A program made the translations under genes and the position numbers. From an uncultured Clostridia bacterium (GTDB taxonomy: Bacteria; Bacillota; Clostridia; Oscillospirales; UBA644): a stretch of 19,312 nt of DNA. The stretch spans positions 1-19,312 of the forward strand of contig CAJGDF010000004.1 in assembly GCA_904502105.1 (NCBI GenBank). The letters are read 5' to 3'. This document shows positions 5,485 through 19,312 of this stretch, in pieces; within the stretch, counting starts at the first letter, position 1, and every line of letters starts with the position of its first letter. The notes beneath the pieces were generated by a model. The model ran no database searches, was not told where the DNA came from, and worked only from the letters and a program-made list of their open reading frames with translations.

Positions 5485-6089
5485 TGGCTATAAAGAATAT
5501 TGCCGTTTTGGTTTCGGGCGGCGGAACAAACCTTCAGGCACTTATCGACGCTGAAAAGAACGGTATAATCAAAAGCGGACGTATCTGCGTTGTTGTTTCA
5601 AGCAAACCCGGAGTTTATGCTCTTGAGCGTGCAGAAAAAGCAGGCATTCCCAACTTTGTTGCGGAAAAGGCTAAGTTCGGCGACGATACCGAAGCGTTCG
5701 GAAACGAAATCAAGAAATATCTGAATGAATATAAAGCAGATGTTATCGTACTCGCAGGATTTTTATCCAAGCTTTCCGAAAGTCTTTGCGAAGAATATAA
5801 GGACAGGATCCTCAACGTGCATCCTGCCCTTATCCCCTCTTTTTGCGGCAAAGGTTTTTACGGATTGCATGTTCACGAGGCAGCACTTGCATACGGCGTA
5901 AAAGTCAGCGGCGCTACAGTGCATCTCGTTGACAGCGAATACGACCACGGCAGGATCATTATGCAGAAGGCAGTTGAAGTATGTGAGGGAGACACTCCCG
6001 AAACACTTCAGCAGAGAATAATGGTTCAGGCTGAACATATAATTCTGCCGCAGGCTGTTGAAAAGCTCTGTGCGGAATTAGGCGAATAA
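5484..6089 (+). CDS. purN: PurN, phosphoribosylglycinamide formyltransferase
   Basis: 201 residues. SGGGTNLQAL (11-20) binds the GAR phosphate in the family; LNVHPALIPSF holds the catalytic Asn and His; and VDSEYDHGRIIMQ holds the catalytic Asp. It transfers a formyl group from 10-formyl-THF to GAR. The start codon overlaps the purM stop by one base and has no independent ribosome binding site, so translation is probably coupled. Last purine gene here; purH and purD, which usually follow in Clostridia, are absent, and rnfC begins 31 bp downstream. Confidence 0.93.
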   Translation: MAIKNIAVLVSGGGTNLQALIDAEKNGIIKSGRICVVVSSKPGVYALERAEKAGIPNFVAEKAKFGDDTEAFGNEIKKYLNEYKADVIVLAGFLSKLSESLCEEYKDRILNVHPALIPSFCGKGFYGLHVHEAALAYGVKVSGATVHLVDSEYDHGRIIMQKAVEVCEGDTPETLQQRIMVQAEHIILPQAVEKLCAELGE

Positions 6090-6120
6090 ACTTTCATATT
6101 ATAAAACTGGGGGTATTAAT

Positions 6121-7428
6121 TTGGCATTTACTTTTAAAGGCGGTATCCATCCCGACTATAACAAAGAAAGAACATATGCAAGCCCCATTGAAGTTTTACC
6201 CCCGACAGAGGAAATGTATGTTCCTCTGTCTCAACATATAGGAGCACCGTGTATCCCGACAGTTAAGCCCGGAGATTACGTAAAGATGGGACAGGTCATT
6301 GCAGACAACACAGTAGCGATGTCCTGCCCTATTCACTCTCCTGTTTCGGGTAAATTCAAGGGCGTGATCCAGCATTGGCATCCATCGGGCACACGTCAGG
6401 CAACAATGCTTATCGAAAACGACGGTCTTGATACCGTTGACGAAACATTGCAGCCATACGAAGATGATCTTGACGACCTTACCCCGTCAGACATAATAAA
6501 TTATGCGAGAGAATCGGGAACAGTAGGCATGGGCGGCGCAGGATTTCCGCTGCATGTAAAACTCAGAACGGCTCTCGATAAAAAGATCGAAACGATAATA
6601 ATAAACGGTGCGGAATGCGAACCGTTTATAACGGCGGACCACCGCGCGATGGTTGAATATCCGAGAACAATAATAAACGGCGTTAAACTTATAATGAAAT
6701 GTTTAAACAAAGATAACGCCATAATTGCAATAGAATCAAACAAACCCGACGCTATTGCAACGATGTCTCACGCCGCGGAAGATTCAGATATAACAATAGT
6801 GGAACTTCCCACCAAATATCCTCAGGGCGGCGAGAAACAACTTATCAAAGCAATCACCGGAAGAGAAATCCCTCCGGGGAAACTTCCTATGGATATAGGA
6901 TGTGCTGTGTTTAACGTTGACACATGCGCATCTCTCTACAGATATATAACAAAAGGCAGACCGCTTATCAAAAGAGTCTGCACTGTATCGGGTTCTGCGG
7001 TAAGAAGCCCGAAAAATCTCCTTGTAAGAATCGGAACCCCGTACTATGCTCTTTTTGAACATTGCGACGGATTTACAGATGACCCTTACAAGATAATATC
7101 AGGCGGCCCGATGATGGGTTCCGCTCAACATTCTATTGAAACTCCCGTTGTTAAAAACACATCGGCACTGCTTGCGTTCTGCGCAGACGAAGAAGGTTTT
7201 GAAAAAGAACCCGTATGTATTCGCTGCGGGAAATGTATAGAAGTCTGTCCGATGCGTCTCATGCCGACATATCTTTATCAGCATGCTTTGGCAGGAGAGT
7301 TTACCGAATGTAAAAAACTCAACGTAACAGACTGCATCGAATGCGGATGCTGTTCATACGTATGCCCCGGAAAGCTTCATCTTGTTCAAGCAATGAGAAT
7401 GGCAAAAGGCAATATTCCGAAAAACTGA
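6121..7428 (+). CDS. rnfC: RnfC, ferredoxin:NAD+ oxidoreductase (Rnf) peripheral subunit
   Basis: 435 residues, the short clostridial form without the long C-terminal repeats of proteobacterial RnfC. It contains the flavin/NADH-site motifs GMGGAGFPLHVKL (136-148) and NGAECEPFITADHRAM (162-177), then two [4Fe-4S] motifs: Cys366, 369, 372, 376 and Cys405, 408, 411, 415. RnfC is the cytoplasmic face of the Rnf complex and is thought to carry the NAD(H) site. The start is TTG 6121, with GGGGG seven bases upstream; no nearby in-frame ATG fits. It begins 31 bp after purN with no clear terminator or promoter between, so it may be transcribed together with the pur genes. Confidence 0.93.
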   Translation: MAFTFKGGIHPDYNKERTYASPIEVLPPTEEMYVPLSQHIGAPCIPTVKPGDYVKMGQVIADNTVAMSCPIHSPVSGKFKGVIQHWHPSGTRQATMLIENDGLDTVDETLQPYEDDLDDLTPSDIINYARESGTVGMGGAGFPLHVKLRTALDKKIETIIINGAECEPFITADHRAMVEYPRTIINGVKLIMKCLNKDNAIIAIESNKPDAIATMSHAAEDSDITIVELPTKYPQGGEKQLIKAITGREIPPGKLPMDIGCAVFNVDTCASLYRYITKGRPLIKRVCTVSGSAVRSPKNLLVRIGTPYYALFEHCDGFTDDPYKIISGGPMMGSAQHSIETPVVKNTSALLAFCADEEGFEKEPVCIRCGKCIEVCPMRLMPTYLYQHALAGEFTECKKLNVTDCIECGCCSYVCPGKLHLVQAMRMAKGNIPKN

Positions 7429-7494
7429 CCGTTTCAAAAGCTTTAACAATCAAGAAGTCGAAAAAAACAATTTATACTGACCGGAGGATCTATT

Positions 7495-8523
7495 TTGGCT
7501 AAAAGATTACTTGTGACATCCTCGCCGCACTACAGATCGGAAAGAACGATAAGCAAAGTCATGCTTGACGTTGTTATCGCAATGATCCCAATCTCGGCGA
7601 TGTCTGTCGTATTTTTCGGTTGGCGCGCGCTTGCGCTTACGATCATCTGCATTGGCGCGTGCATCTCATTTGAAACCATATTCAATCATATTGCAAAGAA
7701 AAGAAATACTGTTGACGACTTTTCAGCAGTCGTAACAGGTATGCTTTTATCTTTCAATCTGCCTGTTACCGCTCCTTACTGGATGGCGGTAATCGGTTCG
7801 TTTTTTGCGATAGTTGTCGTAAAAATGCTGTTTGGAGGTCTCGGAAAGAACTTTGCGAATCCCGCACTTGCGGCAAGAGCGTTTCTTTTTTCCTGGCCCA
7901 CGATAATGACAACTTTCGTCAGACCGTTTATCAATCCCGGCTTACCTGTTCTGTACGACCCCATATTTACAAACGGAGCAGAACTGCCCGAATATATTGA
8001 TACAATAACAACAGCAACTCCCCTTGCCTCTCTTAAAGGCGGTGCTCTTCCGGACATCAGCCTTGCAGATATGTTTATCGGCAATATCGGAGGATGCCTC
8101 GGTGAGGTCTGTGCGGCGGCAATTCTCCTCGGCGGACTTTATATGCTTTTCAGAGGTGTAATTACCTGGCATATTCCGGTAACATACATAGGCACTGTTG
8201 CCCTCGTAACATTTATCTTTCCTCTTACAGGCGGACATTTCGACCTGCAGTTTATGACATATGAACTTTTAAGCGGCGGTCTTTTACTCGGTGCATTCTT
8301 TATGGCAACCGATTATTCAACATCCCCTGTTACAGCAAAAGGCAAGCTCATCTTCGGTATAGGCTGCGGTCTTTTAACCGTATTTTTACGTTATTACAGC
8401 GGCTACAGCGAAGGTGTAAGCTATGCAATACTTATAATGAACGTTCTCGCGTACCCCATTGATAAAATAACAAGACCGAGACGTTACGGAATAGGAGGCG
8501 GCTACAGTGATTCTTCTAAATAA
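7495..8523 (+). CDS. rnfD: RnfD, membrane subunit with covalent FMN
   Basis: 342 residues with many hydrophobic helices, a NqrB/RnfD family integral membrane protein. The N-terminal SSPHYRSERTISKVMLDV, the GKNFANPALAARAF (117-130) loop and the flavinylation site TTATPLASLKGG (172-183) are recognisable; Thr175 is the likely FMN-linked residue by analogy with the S-G-A-T motif of characterised RnfD/NqrB. It takes part in transmembrane electron transfer coupled to Na+ or H+ export. The start is TTG 7495, with GGAGG seven bases upstream. It lies 66 bp after rnfC, the widest gap within the rnf cluster. Its 3' end contains the GGAGG and GTG that appear to initiate rnfG. Confidence 0.93.
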   Translation: MAKRLLVTSSPHYRSERTISKVMLDVVIAMIPISAMSVVFFGWRALALTIICIGACISFETIFNHIAKKRNTVDDFSAVVTGMLLSFNLPVTAPYWMAVIGSFFAIVVVKMLFGGLGKNFANPALAARAFLFSWPTIMTTFVRPFINPGLPVLYDPIFTNGAELPEYIDTITTATPLASLKGGALPDISLADMFIGNIGGCLGEVCAAAILLGGLYMLFRGVITWHIPVTYIGTVALVTFIFPLTGGHFDLQFMTYELLSGGLLLGAFFMATDYSTSPVTAKGKLIFGIGCGLLTVFLRYYSGYSEGVSYAILIMNVLAYPIDKITRPRRYGIGGGYSDSSK

Positions 8524-8578
8524 CATGGAAGAAACATCCGATGTTTCCGTAAACACCGCTACCTCTGCTCCGAAATAA
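8507..8578 (+). other. rnfG: Interrupted 5' end of rnfG: 23-codon reading frame ending in TAA
   Basis: GGAGG (8494-8498), inside the end of rnfD, stands eight bases before GTG 8507. From there, or from an in-frame ATG at 8525, a reading frame codes MEETSDVSVNTATSAPK after six leading residues and stops at TAA 8576-8578. The same frame continues after the stop as KKPRKSGGELQTLSLRL into the first membrane helix of RnfG. The stretch therefore looks like the native N-terminal cytosolic segment split by a nonsense codon. The stop lies just before a run of eight A; changing its T to A would give Lys in a Lys-rich stretch. It could alternatively be a short upstream coupling peptide. Confidence 0.6.
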
Positions 8579-8629
8579 AAAAAACCGAGAAAAAGCGGCG
8601 GCGAGCTGCAGACGCTTTCTTTAAGACTT

Positions 8630-9145
8630 ATGATCATTATCGCAGCGGTTGTTTTAATGCTCGCGGTGGTAAACGGTCTTACAAAAGACAGGATTGCCGA
8701 AAATGAAAAGAAAGCAAATGACGAAGCAAGAATTGCACTTTTTGAAGATGCTACCTCATTTGAACCGACTACCGTTGATCTGTCTGAAGATCTTTCCAAA
8801 TACGTAGGGGAGATCTATGAGGCAACAATAAACGGTGAATCTCTCGGCTTCTGCATCAGCGTTTCATCAAACGGCTTTGGCGGTGCCATAAATATGATAG
8901 TCGGCGTTACAGTTGACGGACTTATAACAGGCGTAAAAGTCGTTTCACACACAGAAACAGCAGGTGTTGGCGAAAGAATAATCTCAAACGGATCAATTCT
9001 TTCACAATTCATTAACGCCTCAAAAAACTCAGTTTCATCCGTTGAAACCATAACTGGTGCGACTGTAACATCAAAAGCGATCATCGAGGGCGTTTCAAAA
9101 GCACTCGAGGCTGTTTCACAGCTTTTAGCGGACGGAGGTTTATGA
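8630..9145 (+). CDS. rnfG: RnfG, periplasm-facing flavoprotein subunit (possible internal start; upstream stop codon)
   Basis: 171 residues from ATG 8630. One membrane helix (about residues 2-18) is followed by an extracytoplasmic FMN-binding domain with HTETAGVGERI (107-117) and the flavinylation motif TGATVTSK (142-149), where Thr147 is the expected FMN-linked threonine. RnfG passes electrons between the Rnf membrane flavins. There is no ribosome binding site before ATG 8630, and no TTG or GTG lies between it and the upstream in-frame TAA (8576). The well-placed start is GTG 8507, which leads in frame into this gene through that TAA. The product may be made by termination-reinitiation about 50 nt later, by readthrough, or hardly at all. 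A start at 8630 would remove the Lys/Arg-rich cytosolic anchor preceding the helix. The downstream part is intact and ends 1 bp before rnfE. Confidence 0.8.
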   Translation: MIIIAAVVLMLAVVNGLTKDRIAENEKKANDEARIALFEDATSFEPTTVDLSEDLSKYVGEIYEATINGESLGFCISVSSNGFGGAINMIVGVTVDGLITGVKVVSHTETAGVGERIISNGSILSQFINASKNSVSSVETITGATVTSKAIIEGVSKALEAVSQLLADGGL

Positions 9146-9146
9146 T

Positions 9147-9779
9147 ATGGCTAAAAAGAAAACAAATTCGGTATCATATCTTAACATCCTCAAAGACGGA
9201 ATAATAACCAAGAACCCTACTTTCATTCAGCTTCTCGGTATGTGCCCGACTCTTGCGGTAACAACGACCGTTTCAAACGGAATAGGAATGGGACTCTCGG
9301 CAACGTTTGTTCTTATCTGCTCAAACTTTTTCATTTCCATGCTCCGAAAATTTATTCCGAGCAAAATAAGAATAGCATCTTACATAGTTATAATCGCAGG
9401 CTTTGTTTCAACTGTTGAAATGGTCATAAAAGCATGGCTTCCCGATCTTTCAAAATCGCTCGGCCTGTTCATCCCTCTGATAGTTGTAAACTGTATAATC
9501 CTTGCAAGAGCAGAAGCCTTTGCATCAAAGAATGCACCGATACCTTCCGCTGTTGACGGTTTTGCATGCGGCATCGGTTTTACAATTGCGCTTACCGTTA
9601 TCTCCGCCATCCGTGAGCTTTTCGGAAACGGAACGCTTTTGGGATTCAACATTATGGGTGAGAATTTCTCTCCCGCACTTTTGCTGATCCTTCCCGCAGG
9701 CGGTTTTCTGGTACTCGGTTTCCTTATCGCTCTTGTTCAGTTTATAATGTCAAAAGTCGAAGATAGGAGTGGTAAATAA
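9147..9779 (+). CDS. rnfE: RnfE, integral membrane subunit
   Basis: 210 residues with about six hydrophobic helices, of the NqrD/RnfE family. KNPTFIQLLGMCPTLAVTT places Cys33 and LIVVNCIILARAEAF places Cys116 in the two antiparallel half-repeats; in RnfA/RnfE and NqrD/NqrE these cysteines share an intramembrane iron-sulfur cluster with the partner subunit. GGAGG lies eight bases before ATG 9147, within the end of rnfG. The stop overlaps the rnfA start (TAATG). Lengths and order match clostridial rnfCDGEAB. Confidence 0.93.
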   Translation: MAKKKTNSVSYLNILKDGIITKNPTFIQLLGMCPTLAVTTTVSNGIGMGLSATFVLICSNFFISMLRKFIPSKIRIASYIVIIAGFVSTVEMVIKAWLPDLSKSLGLFIPLIVVNCIILARAEAFASKNAPIPSAVDGFACGIGFTIALTVISAIRELFGNGTLLGFNIMGENFSPALLLILPAGGFLVLGFLIALVQFIMSKVEDRSGK

Positions 9780-10363
9780 TGCTTAATCTCCTTGTTATAT
9801 CGATAAATGCAATACTCATCGAAAACTTTGTCCTCGTTAAATTCTACGGTTGCTGCCCGTTCCTCGGTGTTTCAAAAAAGAGCGAAACAGCTCTCGGTAT
9901 GGGTATGGCGGTTGTTTTCACAATGACCATAGCCTCTGCGATGACATGGCTTTTCAATGAGCTTATCCTCAAGCCTTTCGACCTTGAATATCTGCAGACG
10001 ATCGCATTTATTGCGATAATTGCAACACTTGTTCAAATAATCGAAATGTTCTTACAGAAAAGTATCCCTTCACTTTACTCAGCTTTGGGTATATACCTAC
10101 CGCTTATAACAACGAACTGCGCAGTTCTCGGCGTAACTCTTCTGAATATAAACAACGACTATAATTTTATCACATCGGTCGTTTACGGTTTTTCCGCAGG
10201 TGTGGGTTTCCTTGTGGCCATCCTTCTTCTTTCCGCAATACGTGAAAGAATAGCCTATTCAGATATTCCCAAGCCGTTCAGAGGATTTCCTATCGTTCTT
10301 ATAGCAGCGGCTCTCCTGAGCATATCTTTCATGGGATTCCAAGGCTTAAAACTTCCGTTCTGA
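9779..10363 (+). CDS. rnfA: RnfA, integral membrane subunit
   Basis: 194 residues, about six membrane helices, paralogous to RnfE with inverted topology. ENFVLVKFYGCCPFLGVSKK contains Cys25-Cys26, and TTNCAVLGVTL contains Cys114; with RnfE these are the expected ligands of the membrane-embedded iron-sulfur centre between RnfC/RnfB and the RnfD/RnfG flavins. It starts at the ATG overlapping the rnfE stop, implying translational coupling. It ends 47 bp before rnfB. Confidence 0.93.
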   Translation: MLNLLVISINAILIENFVLVKFYGCCPFLGVSKKSETALGMGMAVVFTMTIASAMTWLFNELILKPFDLEYLQTIAFIAIIATLVQIIEMFLQKSIPSLYSALGIYLPLITTNCAVLGVTLLNINNDYNFITSVVYGFSAGVGFLVAILLLSAIRERIAYSDIPKPFRGFPIVLIAAALLSISFMGFQGLKLPF

Positions 10364-10410
10364 TACAAAAGTGTTAAAACGAAAGTAAAATAAACATGGG
10401 AGACATTTAA

Positions 10411-11313
10411 ATGGATATTATCCAAATTATTTTAACCGTTTTGATAATGGCTGTTTTTGGCCTTTTTCTCGGTTTTCTCATAGCAATTGCAAGTAAATTT
10501 CTGTTTGTAAAAAAAGATGAACGAATTGACCTTATCGTTGAACAGCTGCCGGGAGCAAATTGCGGCGGATGCGGCTATGCAGGTTGCGGAGCTTACGCCG
10601 AAGCTATTGTTTCAGGTAATGCGCCCGTAAACAAATGCCCTGTAGGCGGCGATAAATCAGCCGCAGGCATTGCAAAGATAATGGGACTTGAAGCATCGTC
10701 AACAGTACGTATGAGAGCACAGGTTCTTTGCAGCGGTACAAACAGCCTCGCAAACAGAAAATATAATTATATAGGTCTTAAAGATTGCCTTTCCGTTGCA
10801 CGACTCGGCAACGGCCCGAAGGAATGCCAGTATGGCTGTATCGGTCTCGGCACATGTGTTAAAGCATGTCCGTTCGGTGCGATCAAGGTTGAAAACGGTG
10901 TTGCGGCAGTTGAATATGAAAAATGCCACGCTTGCGGTATGTGTGTTTCCGCTTGTCCGCAAAAGCTTATTCAGCTTGTTCCGTTCGACACAGACGTATG
11001 GGTCGGCTGCCGCTCTCACGACAAAGGACCTGTTGTTAAAAACCATTGTAAGGTCGGTTGTCTCGGATGCGGTCTTTGCGCAAAGGTTTGCCCCTCCGGA
11101 GCAATAACCGTAAACGAAGGCGTCGCACAGATCGACTATGAAAAATGCGTCAGCTGCGGAGCATGTGTTGAAAAATGCCCGAGAAAGATAATCTGGTCCG
11201 GAAAGGTTCAAATGTCTTTGGGCAGCACAATTGCAAACGACATCGCAGCAGACTCATCAGAACCAAAGAAGAGACGTTCAAGAGTTGACAAGCTCATGGA
11301 CGAAGACAGATAA
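10411..11313 (+). CDS. rnfB: RnfB, ferredoxin-accepting iron-sulfur subunit
   Basis: 300 residues. One N-terminal membrane helix (about 4-28) anchors a cytoplasmic iron-sulfur protein. The Fe-S domain motif ANCGGCGYAGC uses Cys51, 54, 59 and 76. Four further motifs follow: CQYGCIGLGTCVKAC (139-153), CHACGMCVSAC (172-182), CKVGCLGCGLCAKVC (213-227) and CVSCGACVEKC (246-256). That makes five predicted [4Fe-4S] sites, in line with cluster-rich clostridial RnfB. It is the entry point for electrons from reduced ferredoxin. The C-terminal tail is charged and basic. GGGAG lies eight bases before the ATG. Its stop is followed with no gap by the start of a 52-residue membrane protein (TAAATG). Confidence 0.93.
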   Translation: MDIIQIILTVLIMAVFGLFLGFLIAIASKFLFVKKDERIDLIVEQLPGANCGGCGYAGCGAYAEAIVSGNAPVNKCPVGGDKSAAGIAKIMGLEASSTVRMRAQVLCSGTNSLANRKYNYIGLKDCLSVARLGNGPKECQYGCIGLGTCVKACPFGAIKVENGVAAVEYEKCHACGMCVSACPQKLIQLVPFDTDVWVGCRSHDKGPVVKNHCKVGCLGCGLCAKVCPSGAITVNEGVAQIDYEKCVSCGACVEKCPRKIIWSGKVQMSLGSTIANDIAADSSEPKKRRSRVDKLMDEDR

Positions 11314-11472
11314 ATGATATTCAAACGACAGAAAAATTATAAATATACACCGCATAAAAAGCCATTGTCAAAAAAACGGATAGCGCTGTACATAATAATA
11401 AGTGCAGTGCTGTTTGTTGCAGGCTTTTTTGCGGCTAATCCGATCATGACTTTGGTAGGTATTTTTTTATGA
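11314..11472 (+). CDS. Small basic single-span membrane protein, 52 residues, unrecognised
   Basis: I do not recognise a family. The frame begins at the ATG directly after the rnfB stop and its stop overlaps the next start (ATGA), so it is packed between two coupled genes; that is the main evidence that it is real. The N-terminal 22 residues contain nine Lys/Arg (MIFKRQKNYKYTPHKK...) and no acidic residue occurs anywhere in the protein. One hydrophobic helix covers about residues 23-41 (IALYIIISAVLFVAGFFAA), followed by a short apolar tail NPIMTLVGIFL. The positive-inside rule suggests the basic end is cytoplasmic. It could be an accessory subunit or assembly factor of Rnf, or a membrane dock for the downstream ferredoxin-domain protein; both are inference. 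The ribosome binding site is weak, consistent with coupling to rnfB. Confidence 0.65.
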   Translation: MIFKRQKNYKYTPHKKPLSKKRIALYIIISAVLFVAGFFAANPIMTLVGIFL

Positions 11473-13022
11473 AATGTGTAATCAACAGTAAAAATATTGA
11501 GTTCAGCACAGGTAAAACTCTTCTTGAAATACTTGCAGATAACGGTTTTACTCTCGATGCTCCCTGCGGAGGCAGAGGCGTATGCGGTAAATGTAAAGTA
11601 ACGGCAAGCGGTGCTTTATCCGAAATGACGGACAAAGAAAAAGAGCTTTTAACCGAAACGGAGATTGAGAGCGGTATCCGTCTTGCATGCTTCTGCCGAG
11701 CAGAAGGTGAATTTGAATTATCCACAGGTAATTCTTTCTACGAGATCCAGACAACCGCAGATGTTTCCGAATATGAAGTCGAACCGTCCGACGAAGTAAA
11801 GAATTTTGCTGAAAAGAACGGAAAAGCAATCGGTATTGCTATAGATATCGGAACAACAACAGTTGTTTCTGTGTTCTACGATCTTCTCAGCGGCAAAAAA
11901 CTGTTCACAACTTCTGCAATCAATGCACAGAAAACGTTCGGTGCCGATGTTATGTCAAGAATAGGTTTCGCCATTGACAATGAAGACGGTGATGAAACAC
12001 TTCAAAATGCTATCATAAACCAGATCAACGGAATGATCGATAAATCAGGTATAGATAAAAAAGACATCGTAAAAATAGCTATCGGCGGCAATACTACAAT
12101 GCAGCTTACAGCGGCAAGACTGTCAATAAAATCCCTCGGTGCCGTTCCTTTCGAACCCCTCTCCTATTTCGGATGTGCTTTTCCTGCAAAAGAACTCGGC
12201 TACAGTCCCGAAAATGCAGAAGTTTACTTCATGCCTTGCTGCGGCGGCTTTTTCGGCGGAGATGCAGTCGCATGTATGCTCCCTGCGGGATATGACAGCG
12301 GCGACGGTAAAATAAAATACATTGCAGATATCGGAACAAACGGAGAACTTTCGCTTGAAGTCGGAGATAAGATCTACGGTTGTTCAACAGCTGCCGGCCC
12401 TGCGTTTGAAGGAGCATGCATACGTTTCGGAACAGGAAGCATTGAAGGCGCAATAAACGGTGTAAAAGCAGATCCCAATTCACCAAACGGCTTTGAGTTC
12501 AAAACTATCGCAAACAAAGCACCTACGGGAATTTGCGGTTCAGGCCTTATCGATCTTGTCAACGTATGTCTCGAAAACGAGCTTATCGATGAAACAGGAC
12601 ATATTGACGATGACTGCCCCGAATTTGAAGACGAGTGCGCAATACAGCTTACCGACGATATTTTCCTTACCCAAAAGGACGTCAGAGAAATTCAGCTTGC
12701 TAAATCCGCTATTTGCGCGGGAACGATCGTTCTTGACGGTATGATCGGATCAAAAGAAACCCCTGAAGTTTTCATTGCAGGCGGCTTCGGAACAGCTATT
12801 AACCTTGAAAGTGCAAAAGGCATAGGTCTTTTACCCAAAGCATACTGCGATAACGCAAAAGCTGTTGGCAATGCGGCACTTGCAGGAACAACAATGGTTC
12901 TGCTTTCCGAAAAATACAGAGCAAAAGCAGAAAAAATACAGGCAAAAGTTCAGATACTCGACCTTTCTACCGATCCGGTATTCCAGGACGAATATGTTGA
13001 AAATATGATATTTGATATTTAA
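11469..13022 (+). CDS. ASKHA/DUF4445 protein with N-terminal [2Fe-2S] ferredoxin domain (RACo/RamA-like)
   Basis: 517 residues. The N-terminal plant-type ferredoxin domain has Cys33, 39, 42 (PCGGRGVCGKCK) and Cys74. The remainder is a DUF4445/COG3894 ATPase of the ASKHA (actin/sugar kinase/Hsp70) fold, with phosphate and adenosine motifs IDIGTTTVVSVFYD (about 124-137), IAIGGNTTM, DIGTNGELSLEVGDK, STAAGPAFEGA, GICGSGLIDLV and AGGFGTAINLESAKGIGLLP. Characterised relatives (RACo, RamA, RamQ) use ATP and low-potential electrons to reduce an inactivated Co(II) corrinoid of methyltransferases. No corrinoid protein or methyltransferase is in the window, so the target is unknown. The start overlaps the stop of the small membrane protein (ATGA). 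Placed last in an rnfCDGEAB-small protein-ASKHA unit. Confidence 0.88.
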   Translation: MKCVINSKNIEFSTGKTLLEILADNGFTLDAPCGGRGVCGKCKVTASGALSEMTDKEKELLTETEIESGIRLACFCRAEGEFELSTGNSFYEIQTTADVSEYEVEPSDEVKNFAEKNGKAIGIAIDIGTTTVVSVFYDLLSGKKLFTTSAINAQKTFGADVMSRIGFAIDNEDGDETLQNAIINQINGMIDKSGIDKKDIVKIAIGGNTTMQLTAARLSIKSLGAVPFEPLSYFGCAFPAKELGYSPENAEVYFMPCCGGFFGGDAVACMLPAGYDSGDGKIKYIADIGTNGELSLEVGDKIYGCSTAAGPAFEGACIRFGTGSIEGAINGVKADPNSPNGFEFKTIANKAPTGICGSGLIDLVNVCLENELIDETGHIDDDCPEFEDECAIQLTDDIFLTQKDVREIQLAKSAICAGTIVLDGMIGSKETPEVFIAGGFGTAINLESAKGIGLLPKAYCDNAKAVGNAALAGTTMVLLSEKYRAKAEKIQAKVQILDLSTDPVFQDEYVENMIFDI

Positions 13023-13057: not shown

Positions 13058-13468
13058 ATGAATAATTTACTTCTTTTCAGAGAGATAAGCGGAGTTCAAC
13101 GTAAAGAAATATCATTTTTCCTCCATACTTCAATTCATGTGTATCACTATTACGAAAAAGATATAATTACAATTCCTGAGAATATAAAAAGAATGTTGGC
13201 AAAGCTGTATGATGTAACAGAAACAGAGCTATTTAATTCTGATGGTGTCATCTCCGAAAATACAATGGAAAAACTCAGATATTTTTCAACCCTTGATGAA
13301 GAAAAACGAAAAAAGAAATTATCATTGAATCTGAGTGAAGGAAAAGCAGAAAAATTGAATCATGAACAAATCGAACAGATCAAACATGGAGAACGATATT
13401 GTCCTTCCGATACAATCATTTCTGATAATGAAGAAATAGATGAAGATATTTTTATTTGGGAAAATTAG
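13058..13468 (+). CDS. XRE-like helix-turn-helix protein, 136 residues
   Basis: The first 60 residues fit a divergent XRE/Cro-type domain: LLFREISGVQRKEISFFLHTSIHVYHYYEKD gives the first helices and helix-turn-helix, and ITIPENIKRMLAKLYDVTETELF matches the usual closing helices. The rest is polar and lysine-rich, then strongly acidic (about SDNEEIDEDIFIWEN at the end), with no domain I recognise. GGGAGGG lies eight bases before the ATG, a strong site. Base use is visibly more A+T-rich than the flanking genes and the gene sits in a gap of about 460 bp between the ASKHA and decarboxylase genes, suggesting a separately acquired or fast-evolving gene. It may regulate a neighbour or be the remnant of an accessory element. 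No target operator was seen. Confidence 0.6.
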   Translation: MNNLLLFREISGVQRKEISFFLHTSIHVYHYYEKDIITIPENIKRMLAKLYDVTETELFNSDGVISENTMEKLRYFSTLDEEKRKKKLSLNLSEGKAEKLNHEQIEQIKHGERYCPSDTIISDNEEIDEDIFIWEN

Positions 13469-18569: not shown

Positions 18570-18589
18570 AGATAAATTATCATATATTT

Positions 18590-18622
18590 ACTCCTCCCAA
18601 ATGGGAGGAGTTTGTTTATTTT
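18590..18622 (+). terminator. Rho-independent terminator after rsmI
   Basis: ACTCCTCCC / GGGAGGAGT form a perfect 9-bp stem around loop AAAT (18590-18611), followed by TTGTTTATTTT. It closes the holB-to-rsmI block. Confidence 0.92.
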
Positions 18623-18679
18623 CAATAATTTTTCGCCATATATAAGCTCAATATTGTATGTTTTATATTTAATAAAATA

Positions 18680-18708
18680 TTGAAATTAAGTTCTTTCTGT
18701 GTTATAAT
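18680..18708 (+). promoter_or_regulatory. Promoter of the permease-like gene
   Basis: TTGAAA (18680-18685), 17-bp spacer, TATAAT (18703-18708) with an extended TG. The start site near 18715 leaves a leader of about 40 nt. The upstream stretch 18623-18679 is very A+T-rich and could act as an UP element. No operator palindrome was recognised. Confidence 0.82.
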
Positions 18709-18755
18709 ATAAATGTAAACATGACACGTACTCAAATATATCGGAGGTGCAAAAA

Positions 18756-19312
18756 ATGAAGTATTTATTCGTAGACCTATGGGCGAACATCAGAAAGTCC
18801 CCATTTTTATTCCTATTTTTGTTTTTACAGATAGTTATAACGAGCCTGGTCTTGTATTCTGCGCTTGCGAACTATTATTGGACAGAAGAGAGAAGTGATT
18901 CCGCACAGATCGCATGGGGCGATAAAGAATACTTGAAAATGGCAGGAACGACCAATATGAACAGACCCAAATGGGAACTTCTGCTGTTTTCCAGACCCAA
19001 TACGATTCCCTATAACAATAATGGGGATTATTCTGTAGAAAACAATTTACGTATTTTCGAGAATATTGAGAAATTCTGCGAAGAAGCATATCAAATAGAC
19101 GGATTAAAAATGATTCCTTTTACTGAAGCTAATCTTCACTTGAAAGAATCGAAAAATTGGACTGAAGAAGATAAGGTCAATAGCGAATATACTTTGTTCT
19201 GGGATTATAACGATGATGGTCTCGATACCGTCCGTGCTTTACACGTCGGCTCCGAAACGTTTGACTTTTTTAATTTAAAGCTCAGCGAAGGCGAATTTTT
19301 TTCAAAAGAAGA
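18756..19312 (+). CDS. ABC transporter permease-like protein (MacB/FtsX type), N-terminal part
   Basis: 185 codons are present and the gene runs off the right edge. GGAGG stands eight bases before the ATG. The protein begins MKYLFVDLWANIRKSP, then one strongly hydrophobic helix (about 17-40, FLFLFLFLQIVITSLVLYSAL), then a hydrophilic stretch that should be extracytoplasmic and ends FNLKLSEGEFFSKE, reminiscent of the MacB periplasmic core domain before its closing segment. This fits the first quarter of an FtsX/MacB-type permease, typically involved in peptide or lipid export or antimicrobial-peptide resistance. The remaining membrane helices and any ATPase partner lie outside the window, so another single-span surface protein remains possible. 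It has its own promoter and is separate from the housekeeping block upstream. Confidence 0.6.
   Translation, partial: MKYLFVDLWANIRKSPFLFLFLFLQIVITSLVLYSALANYYWTEERSDSAQIAWGDKEYLKMAGTTNMNRPKWELLLFSRPNTIPYNNNGDYSVENNLRIFENIEKFCEEAYQIDGLKMIPFTEANLHLKESKNWTEEDKVNSEYTLFWDYNDDGLDTVRALHVGSETFDFFNLKLSEGEFFSKE

Follow-up and report, generated by a model that had tools for sequence, protein, structure and literature searches.

The rnf operon and a stop codon within rnfG

The window, by which we mean the whole 19,312-nucleotide stretch analysed, carries on its forward strand an operon with the gene order rnfCDGEAB, in which rnfC (6121..7428), rnfD (7495..8523), rnfE (9147..9779), rnfA (9779..10363), and rnfB (10411..11313) are intact and rnfG is positioned between rnfD and rnfE. 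Matches to Pfam supported rnfC, rnfE, rnfA, and rnfB, and matches to both Pfam and NCBIfam supported rnfD; rnfE and rnfA belong to one Pfam family, so that their names were assigned from gene order. The Shine–Dalgarno sequence of rnfG (GGAGG, 8494..8498, + strand) is located within the last codons of rnfD, whose end overlaps the rnfG start. From the GTG start at 8507, 23 codons lead to an in-frame TAA (8576..8578) as codon 24 (8507..8578, + strand), with a second in-frame start at ATG 8525. The frame reopens at 8579 and runs through ATG 8630 to a TGA at 9143-9145, such that the remainder of rnfG (8579..9145, + strand; 188 codons) encodes a charged juxtamembrane segment, the membrane helix, and the FMN-binding domain. 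The stop thus lies upstream of the helix, and the frame from the ribosome-bound start into the helix is closed at TAA 8576. A run of eight adenines (A8, 8577..8584, + strand) begins within the stop codon itself. The rnfG ribosome site is encoded by the glycine codons of GIGGGY at the C-terminal end of RnfD.

Beyond the stop, the product (a stretch of 171 aa) matches PF04205 (FMN-binding domain) at E 8.6e-17 over residues 82-160 and contains the conserved TGATVT stretch, including the threonine proposed for covalent FMN attachment outside the membrane. On this post-stop stretch, which lacks the N-terminal segment, the TIGR01947 rnfG model scored 99.2 bits, its curated cut-off being 102. Predicted duplex formation with the anti-Shine–Dalgarno sequence amounted to -11.0 kcal/mol at GTG 8507, as compared to -7.3 to -10.7 kcal/mol at the other rnf starts, -3.7 kcal/mol (weak) at ATG 8525, and -1.4 kcal/mol at ATG 8630 (8630..8632, + strand), which marks where the membrane helix begins and has no usable Shine–Dalgarno sequence. 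A previous sequence-only reading of this DNA had held that an in-frame TAA splits rnfG between its ribosome-bound start and its helix and that GTG 8507 is the only well-formed start; coordinates, frame, and duplex energies agree with both statements. The interruption exceeds chance, as indicated by the PF04205 match, an N-terminal peptide with homologs in relatives, and the status of rnfG as the sole broken gene among 20 in the window.

The codon at the position of the stop in relatives of rnfG

A protein-collection search with the stop read as X returned 144 proteins at E <= 0.001, of which 120 were listed, and the best 18 of these 120 listed RnfG relatives were aligned (alignment A1). The closest, P0001 (212 aa), is 99% identical to the window over its whole length (212 residues) and has glutamate where the window has the stop; one further difference occurs before the stop (residue 20) and none after it, with 171/171 residues identical from the helix on. 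The data on P0001 consist of a protein sequence from short contigs, the longest of 1030 bases. The residue equivalent to the stop is valine in P0002 and glutamate in P0003, P0004, and P0005, all four of which show the same N-terminal pattern. The N-terminal peptide of the window rnfG is homologous to that of P0001-P0003. The sequence-only reading had described a polar N terminus, but the peptide quoted there (MEETSDV) corresponds to a start at codon seven (ATG 8525), whereas the first residues from GTG 8507 are MILLNN. The upstream peptide has homologs in relatives, in which it also carries the start, and ATG 8630 as the natural start of a gene with an unrelated upstream peptide was therefore ruled out. 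Two proteins were considered as second instances of the stop and rejected. P0006 (171 aa) begins at the ATG 8630 equivalent and was discounted because its 625-base contig is too short for a full 212-codon gene, and P0007 begins with a leucine preceding that methionine and is labeled partial by its source. As a collection of predicted proteins is unable to show interrupted copies, comparison at the DNA level was needed.

A search of the GTDB collection confirmed at least 444 rnfG loci, the best 80 of which were kept as a wider set. The closest record among these best 80 of at least 444 was L001 (62%), from genome G001, and the identities suggest that G001 and the window are of one genus. Genomes of that genus and family were searched with the part of rnfG from the ATG 8630 equivalent onward (the FMN-domain part), which found an rnfG match without internal stop in 10/10 genus genomes and 19/20 family genomes (genus included); the twentieth family genome gave no rnfG match. 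Upstream of this part, the frame from start to helix was open in 19/19 genus and family loci, and GGAGG preceded the rnfG start in 18/19, the context at L092 belonging to another candidate start. The most similar genome, G003 (locus L082; 82%), has the same GTG start, the same Shine–Dalgarno sequence, and a homologous N-terminal peptide, VILLNNMEETSDVSV... The codon aligned with the stop encodes glutamate in G003, G008, and G005, and aspartate in L001. Interrupted rnfG was found in 0/19 genus and family loci, and in none of the best 80 of at least 444 wider loci by a rule that asked for a Shine–Dalgarno-bound start of at most -6 kcal/mol. Such a start was present by rule in 77/80 of these wider loci (best 80 of at least 444) and on a wider look in the other 3. 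Stops fell within the tblastn match in 11/80 and were not counted as premature, since each either precedes the likely start or sits C-terminal; the positions of these stops were judged by reading translations, and the 77 passing loci by the rule alone. The genus/family and wider counts are not independent, because genomes overlap and L001 and L081 are apparently the same contig. A near match to window positions 7495-9145 was not found in a plasmid collection. Among literature titles on RnfG and stop codons none names an interrupted rnfG, and a literature search for nonsense variants of gut metagenomes returned no papers.

Across the 19 loci, the furthest upstream start lay ∼12-98 residues before the ATG 8630 equivalent, and in 8/19, two of them in the same genus, only ∼12-16 residues ahead of it. 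Judged by this comparison, the segment that the stop removes is a variable linker, the most variable part of RnfG. Across L081-L099, all of one family, the pre-helix segment spans ∼12-98 residues and is longest, and highly charged, in L093.

Age of the stop and competing explanations

Rates of substitution past the stop show evolution under constraint and gave no sign of long decay. With gapped codons set aside and dS near saturation, dN/dS was 0.07 for window-G003 and 0.11 for window-G008, not raised as compared to 0.18 for G003-G008. Identity to G003 was 81% for rnfG and 93-99% for the other five Rnf genes; as dN was higher for rnfG than for any other Rnf gene in each of the three pairings, this lower identity is normal for rnfG. 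The lack of any difference from P0001 past the stop makes the change look very recent, and an intact close homolog (P0001, 99%) together with the absence of other decay (dN/dS 0.07) is what characterizes a recent nonsense allele. Since the relatives examined carry no interrupted copy, the stop is best viewed as a private single-base nonsense difference rather than a conserved readthrough or reinitiation device. On the basis of these comparisons, we therefore consider it likely that a single-base nonsense substitution, private and very recent, affects codon 24 of rnfG, the rest of the Rnf operon being intact, in what its nearest relatives suggest is probably an uncultured Clostridia bacterium. 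A recent nonsense mutation had been among the possibilities raised by the sequence-only reading, which had also proposed aligning rnfG from close relatives; that alignment supports this possibility, as the relatives show sense codons at this position and share the N-terminal segment.

The chief competing account is an error of base calling, damage, or consensus, under which the codon in the cell would be a sense codon and RnfG would be normal. The stop base was read from one assembly consensus sequence and affects a single codon, near-identical P0001 carries a sense codon there, and the downstream frame and selection signal look like those of a working gene. Against this, the other 19 listed genes of the window are open and 18 of them match relatives uninterrupted, which gives no obvious sign of a high error rate overall. 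An error caused by the adjacent A8 run, as suggested previously, fits poorly. Such a run most simply yields length errors, which would shift the frame, or miscalls to its own base, which give no stop, and neither produces TAA; the run is accordingly a poor reason to suspect error. A base error as such is possible, be it a plain substitution error, damage to the DNA, or a minor allele that entered the consensus. We give these together a share of about one in five, a figure of judgement and not of computation. Bypass of the stop could also be programmed, by readthrough, frameshift, or transcript slippage, as a device that tunes RnfG dosage; in its favor, the stop abuts the A8 run and the frame stays intact downstream. 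However, no relative examined, including P0001 and G003, has the stop, which disfavors any such device. As the T of the stop lies ahead of the run, the stop survives slippage, and rescue by frameshift or slippage was ruled out; in the other two frames ahead of the run, no ATG, GTG, or TTG was found that would give ribosomes entry to it. Recoding of TAA is likewise unlikely, as 12/20 window genes end in TAA. We consider programmed bypass highly improbable.

The stop could also be real and bypassed by a weak restart at CTG 8606 or ATG 8630, yielding a shortened RnfG and reduced but useful Rnf activity. The lost part would be the variable linker, and both helix and FMN domain would be retained; the 8/19 loci that start only ∼12-16 residues before the ATG 8630 equivalent are in keeping with this, as is the solved RnfG chain 7zc6_G, which matches the profile from residue 9. 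The absence of in-frame ATG, GTG, or TTG between TAA 8576-8578 and 8630, claimed by the sequence-only reading, stands, although that reading did not list the in-frame CTG (8606..8608, + strand), which is the best, albeit weak, restart candidate past the stop and has a weak Shine–Dalgarno-like stretch (-5.0 kcal/mol). Start duplexes of purM (-6.6 kcal/mol) and of the RACo-like gene of the window (-6.9 kcal/mol) are not far stronger, so that CTG 8606 is weak yet not absurd. In contrast, the -5.0 and -1.4 kcal/mol at the two restart sites compare unfavorably with the -7.3 to -10.7 kcal/mol of the other rnf starts and the -11.0 kcal/mol of GTG 8507, and none of the 19 loci has its probable start at a comparable position lacking a Shine–Dalgarno sequence. 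Net charge before the helix is +5 in the full frame, as compared to +1 for a restart at 8606 and 0 for a restart at 8630, where no charged residue is left ahead of the helix (with +1 after the helix); by the positive-inside rule, an 8630 start would disfavor the normal orientation. A useful restart product thus seems unlikely. Less probable again is a maintained allele that lowers RnfG dosage, in which a low-level product from the non-standard CTG 8606 would lack only the variable cytoplasmic linker and leave the strain with a throttled pump. The earlier proposal that readthrough or reinitiation sets RnfG dosage accordingly found no support, given a stop seen in no relative examined, weak restarts, and an A8 run useless for slippage.

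Predicted consequences and genomic surroundings

Under the favored explanation of a recent nonsense substitution, ribosomes would bind at 8494-8498, initiate at GTG 8507, and terminate after 23 residues, leaving the following 188 codons without an efficient start, so that RnfG would be made little or not at all. Loss of RnfG would cut the electron path of Rnf from RnfA/E to RnfD. The stop, its absence from the relatives examined, the intact neighboring genes, and the weak duplexes of the restart sites are observations, whereas we infer that the base is real in the cell. As the restart sites past the stop are weak, this lineage probably has almost no RnfG, or none at all, and its Rnf pump is probably inactive. 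In Acetobacterium woodii, changes to the flavin-coordinating residues of RnfG gave strains without growth in an autotrophic growth test and without ferredoxin-dependent NAD+ reduction, as reported (PMC11889175). Loss of Rnf activity is therefore the most likely consequence here. Several relatives have a much shorter version of the removed segment, which is variable in general, so that a weakly restarted RnfG could keep partial or trace function. Downstream genes can still be read, since rnfE has its own strong ribosome site (-10.7 kcal/mol); some polarity on them is possible. If the base is real, the lineage would be in the course of losing its ion-pumping Rnf complex, or would be segregating for that loss, which would be a small natural test of the dispensability of Rnf in a Clostridia genus that is probably gut dwelling, as suggested by one relative (goat omasum). 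If the base is an error, the case cautions against inferring gene loss from one consensus base. By either route the finding is an ordinary one that leaves the general picture of Rnf unchanged.

The window gene resembles RnfG of known RnfABCDGE complexes (TIGR01947, PF04205; chains 7zc6_G and 9eri_G) in the rnfCDGEAB order, the position between rnfD and rnfE, the helix followed by an FMN-binding domain, and TGATVT, but differs in the TAA between ribosome-bound start and helix and in a pre-helix segment longer than that of 7zc6_G. Strain-private nonsense alleles (incipient pseudogenes) are a familiar kind of variation, and the window allele, as read from the assembly, falls within it, sharing the single affected codon, the lack of other decay, and the intact copy in a near-identical lineage; nothing sets it apart as unusual, the component affected here being one of an energy-conserving complex. 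The threonine of TGATVT was matched to T185 by hand count on chain 9eri_G, which we take to be the A. woodii RnfG protein. T185 is reported as the flavin-bearing residue of A. woodii RnfG (PMC11889175). In 8/18 aligned relatives (P0008-P0013, P0015, and P0016), serine (GAS) replaces this threonine.

A comparison of 20 window genes covered L001 and 20-kb stretches from three genomes (G003, G008, and G005), window stretches such as 1-359 and 18570-19312 falling outside it. The G003 stretch matched 19/20, and rnfG alone among the 20 was interrupted. The first window gene matched over 86/275 residues in G003, where the stretch ends, and over 206/275 in G008. No tRNA was found in the window. A promoter scan of 6000-11500 returned 11 candidates against 10.7 expected, which is chance level, and a scan for terminator-like structures returned 12 against 6.2 in shuffles. 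Directly after the rnf genes lies a gene (11469-13022) with ferredoxin, RACo-middle, and RACo C-terminal domains, for which the best NCBIfam match was AcsV (286 of 800 bits, well below the cut-off); the order from rnf to this RACo-like gene is kept in L100, L101, L102, and L001. Between it and an Orn/Lys/Arg decarboxylase-like gene stands orf136 (13058-13468; 136 aa), with its own GGGAGGG site. orf136 had no match in any of the four compared stretches or in Pfam and NCBIfam searches, and no counterpart was present in L100, L101, L102, or L001, where the flanking genes are ∼4 to 39 bases apart as measured between match ends. A large protein collection contained 8 homologs of orf136, the best of them 94% identical.
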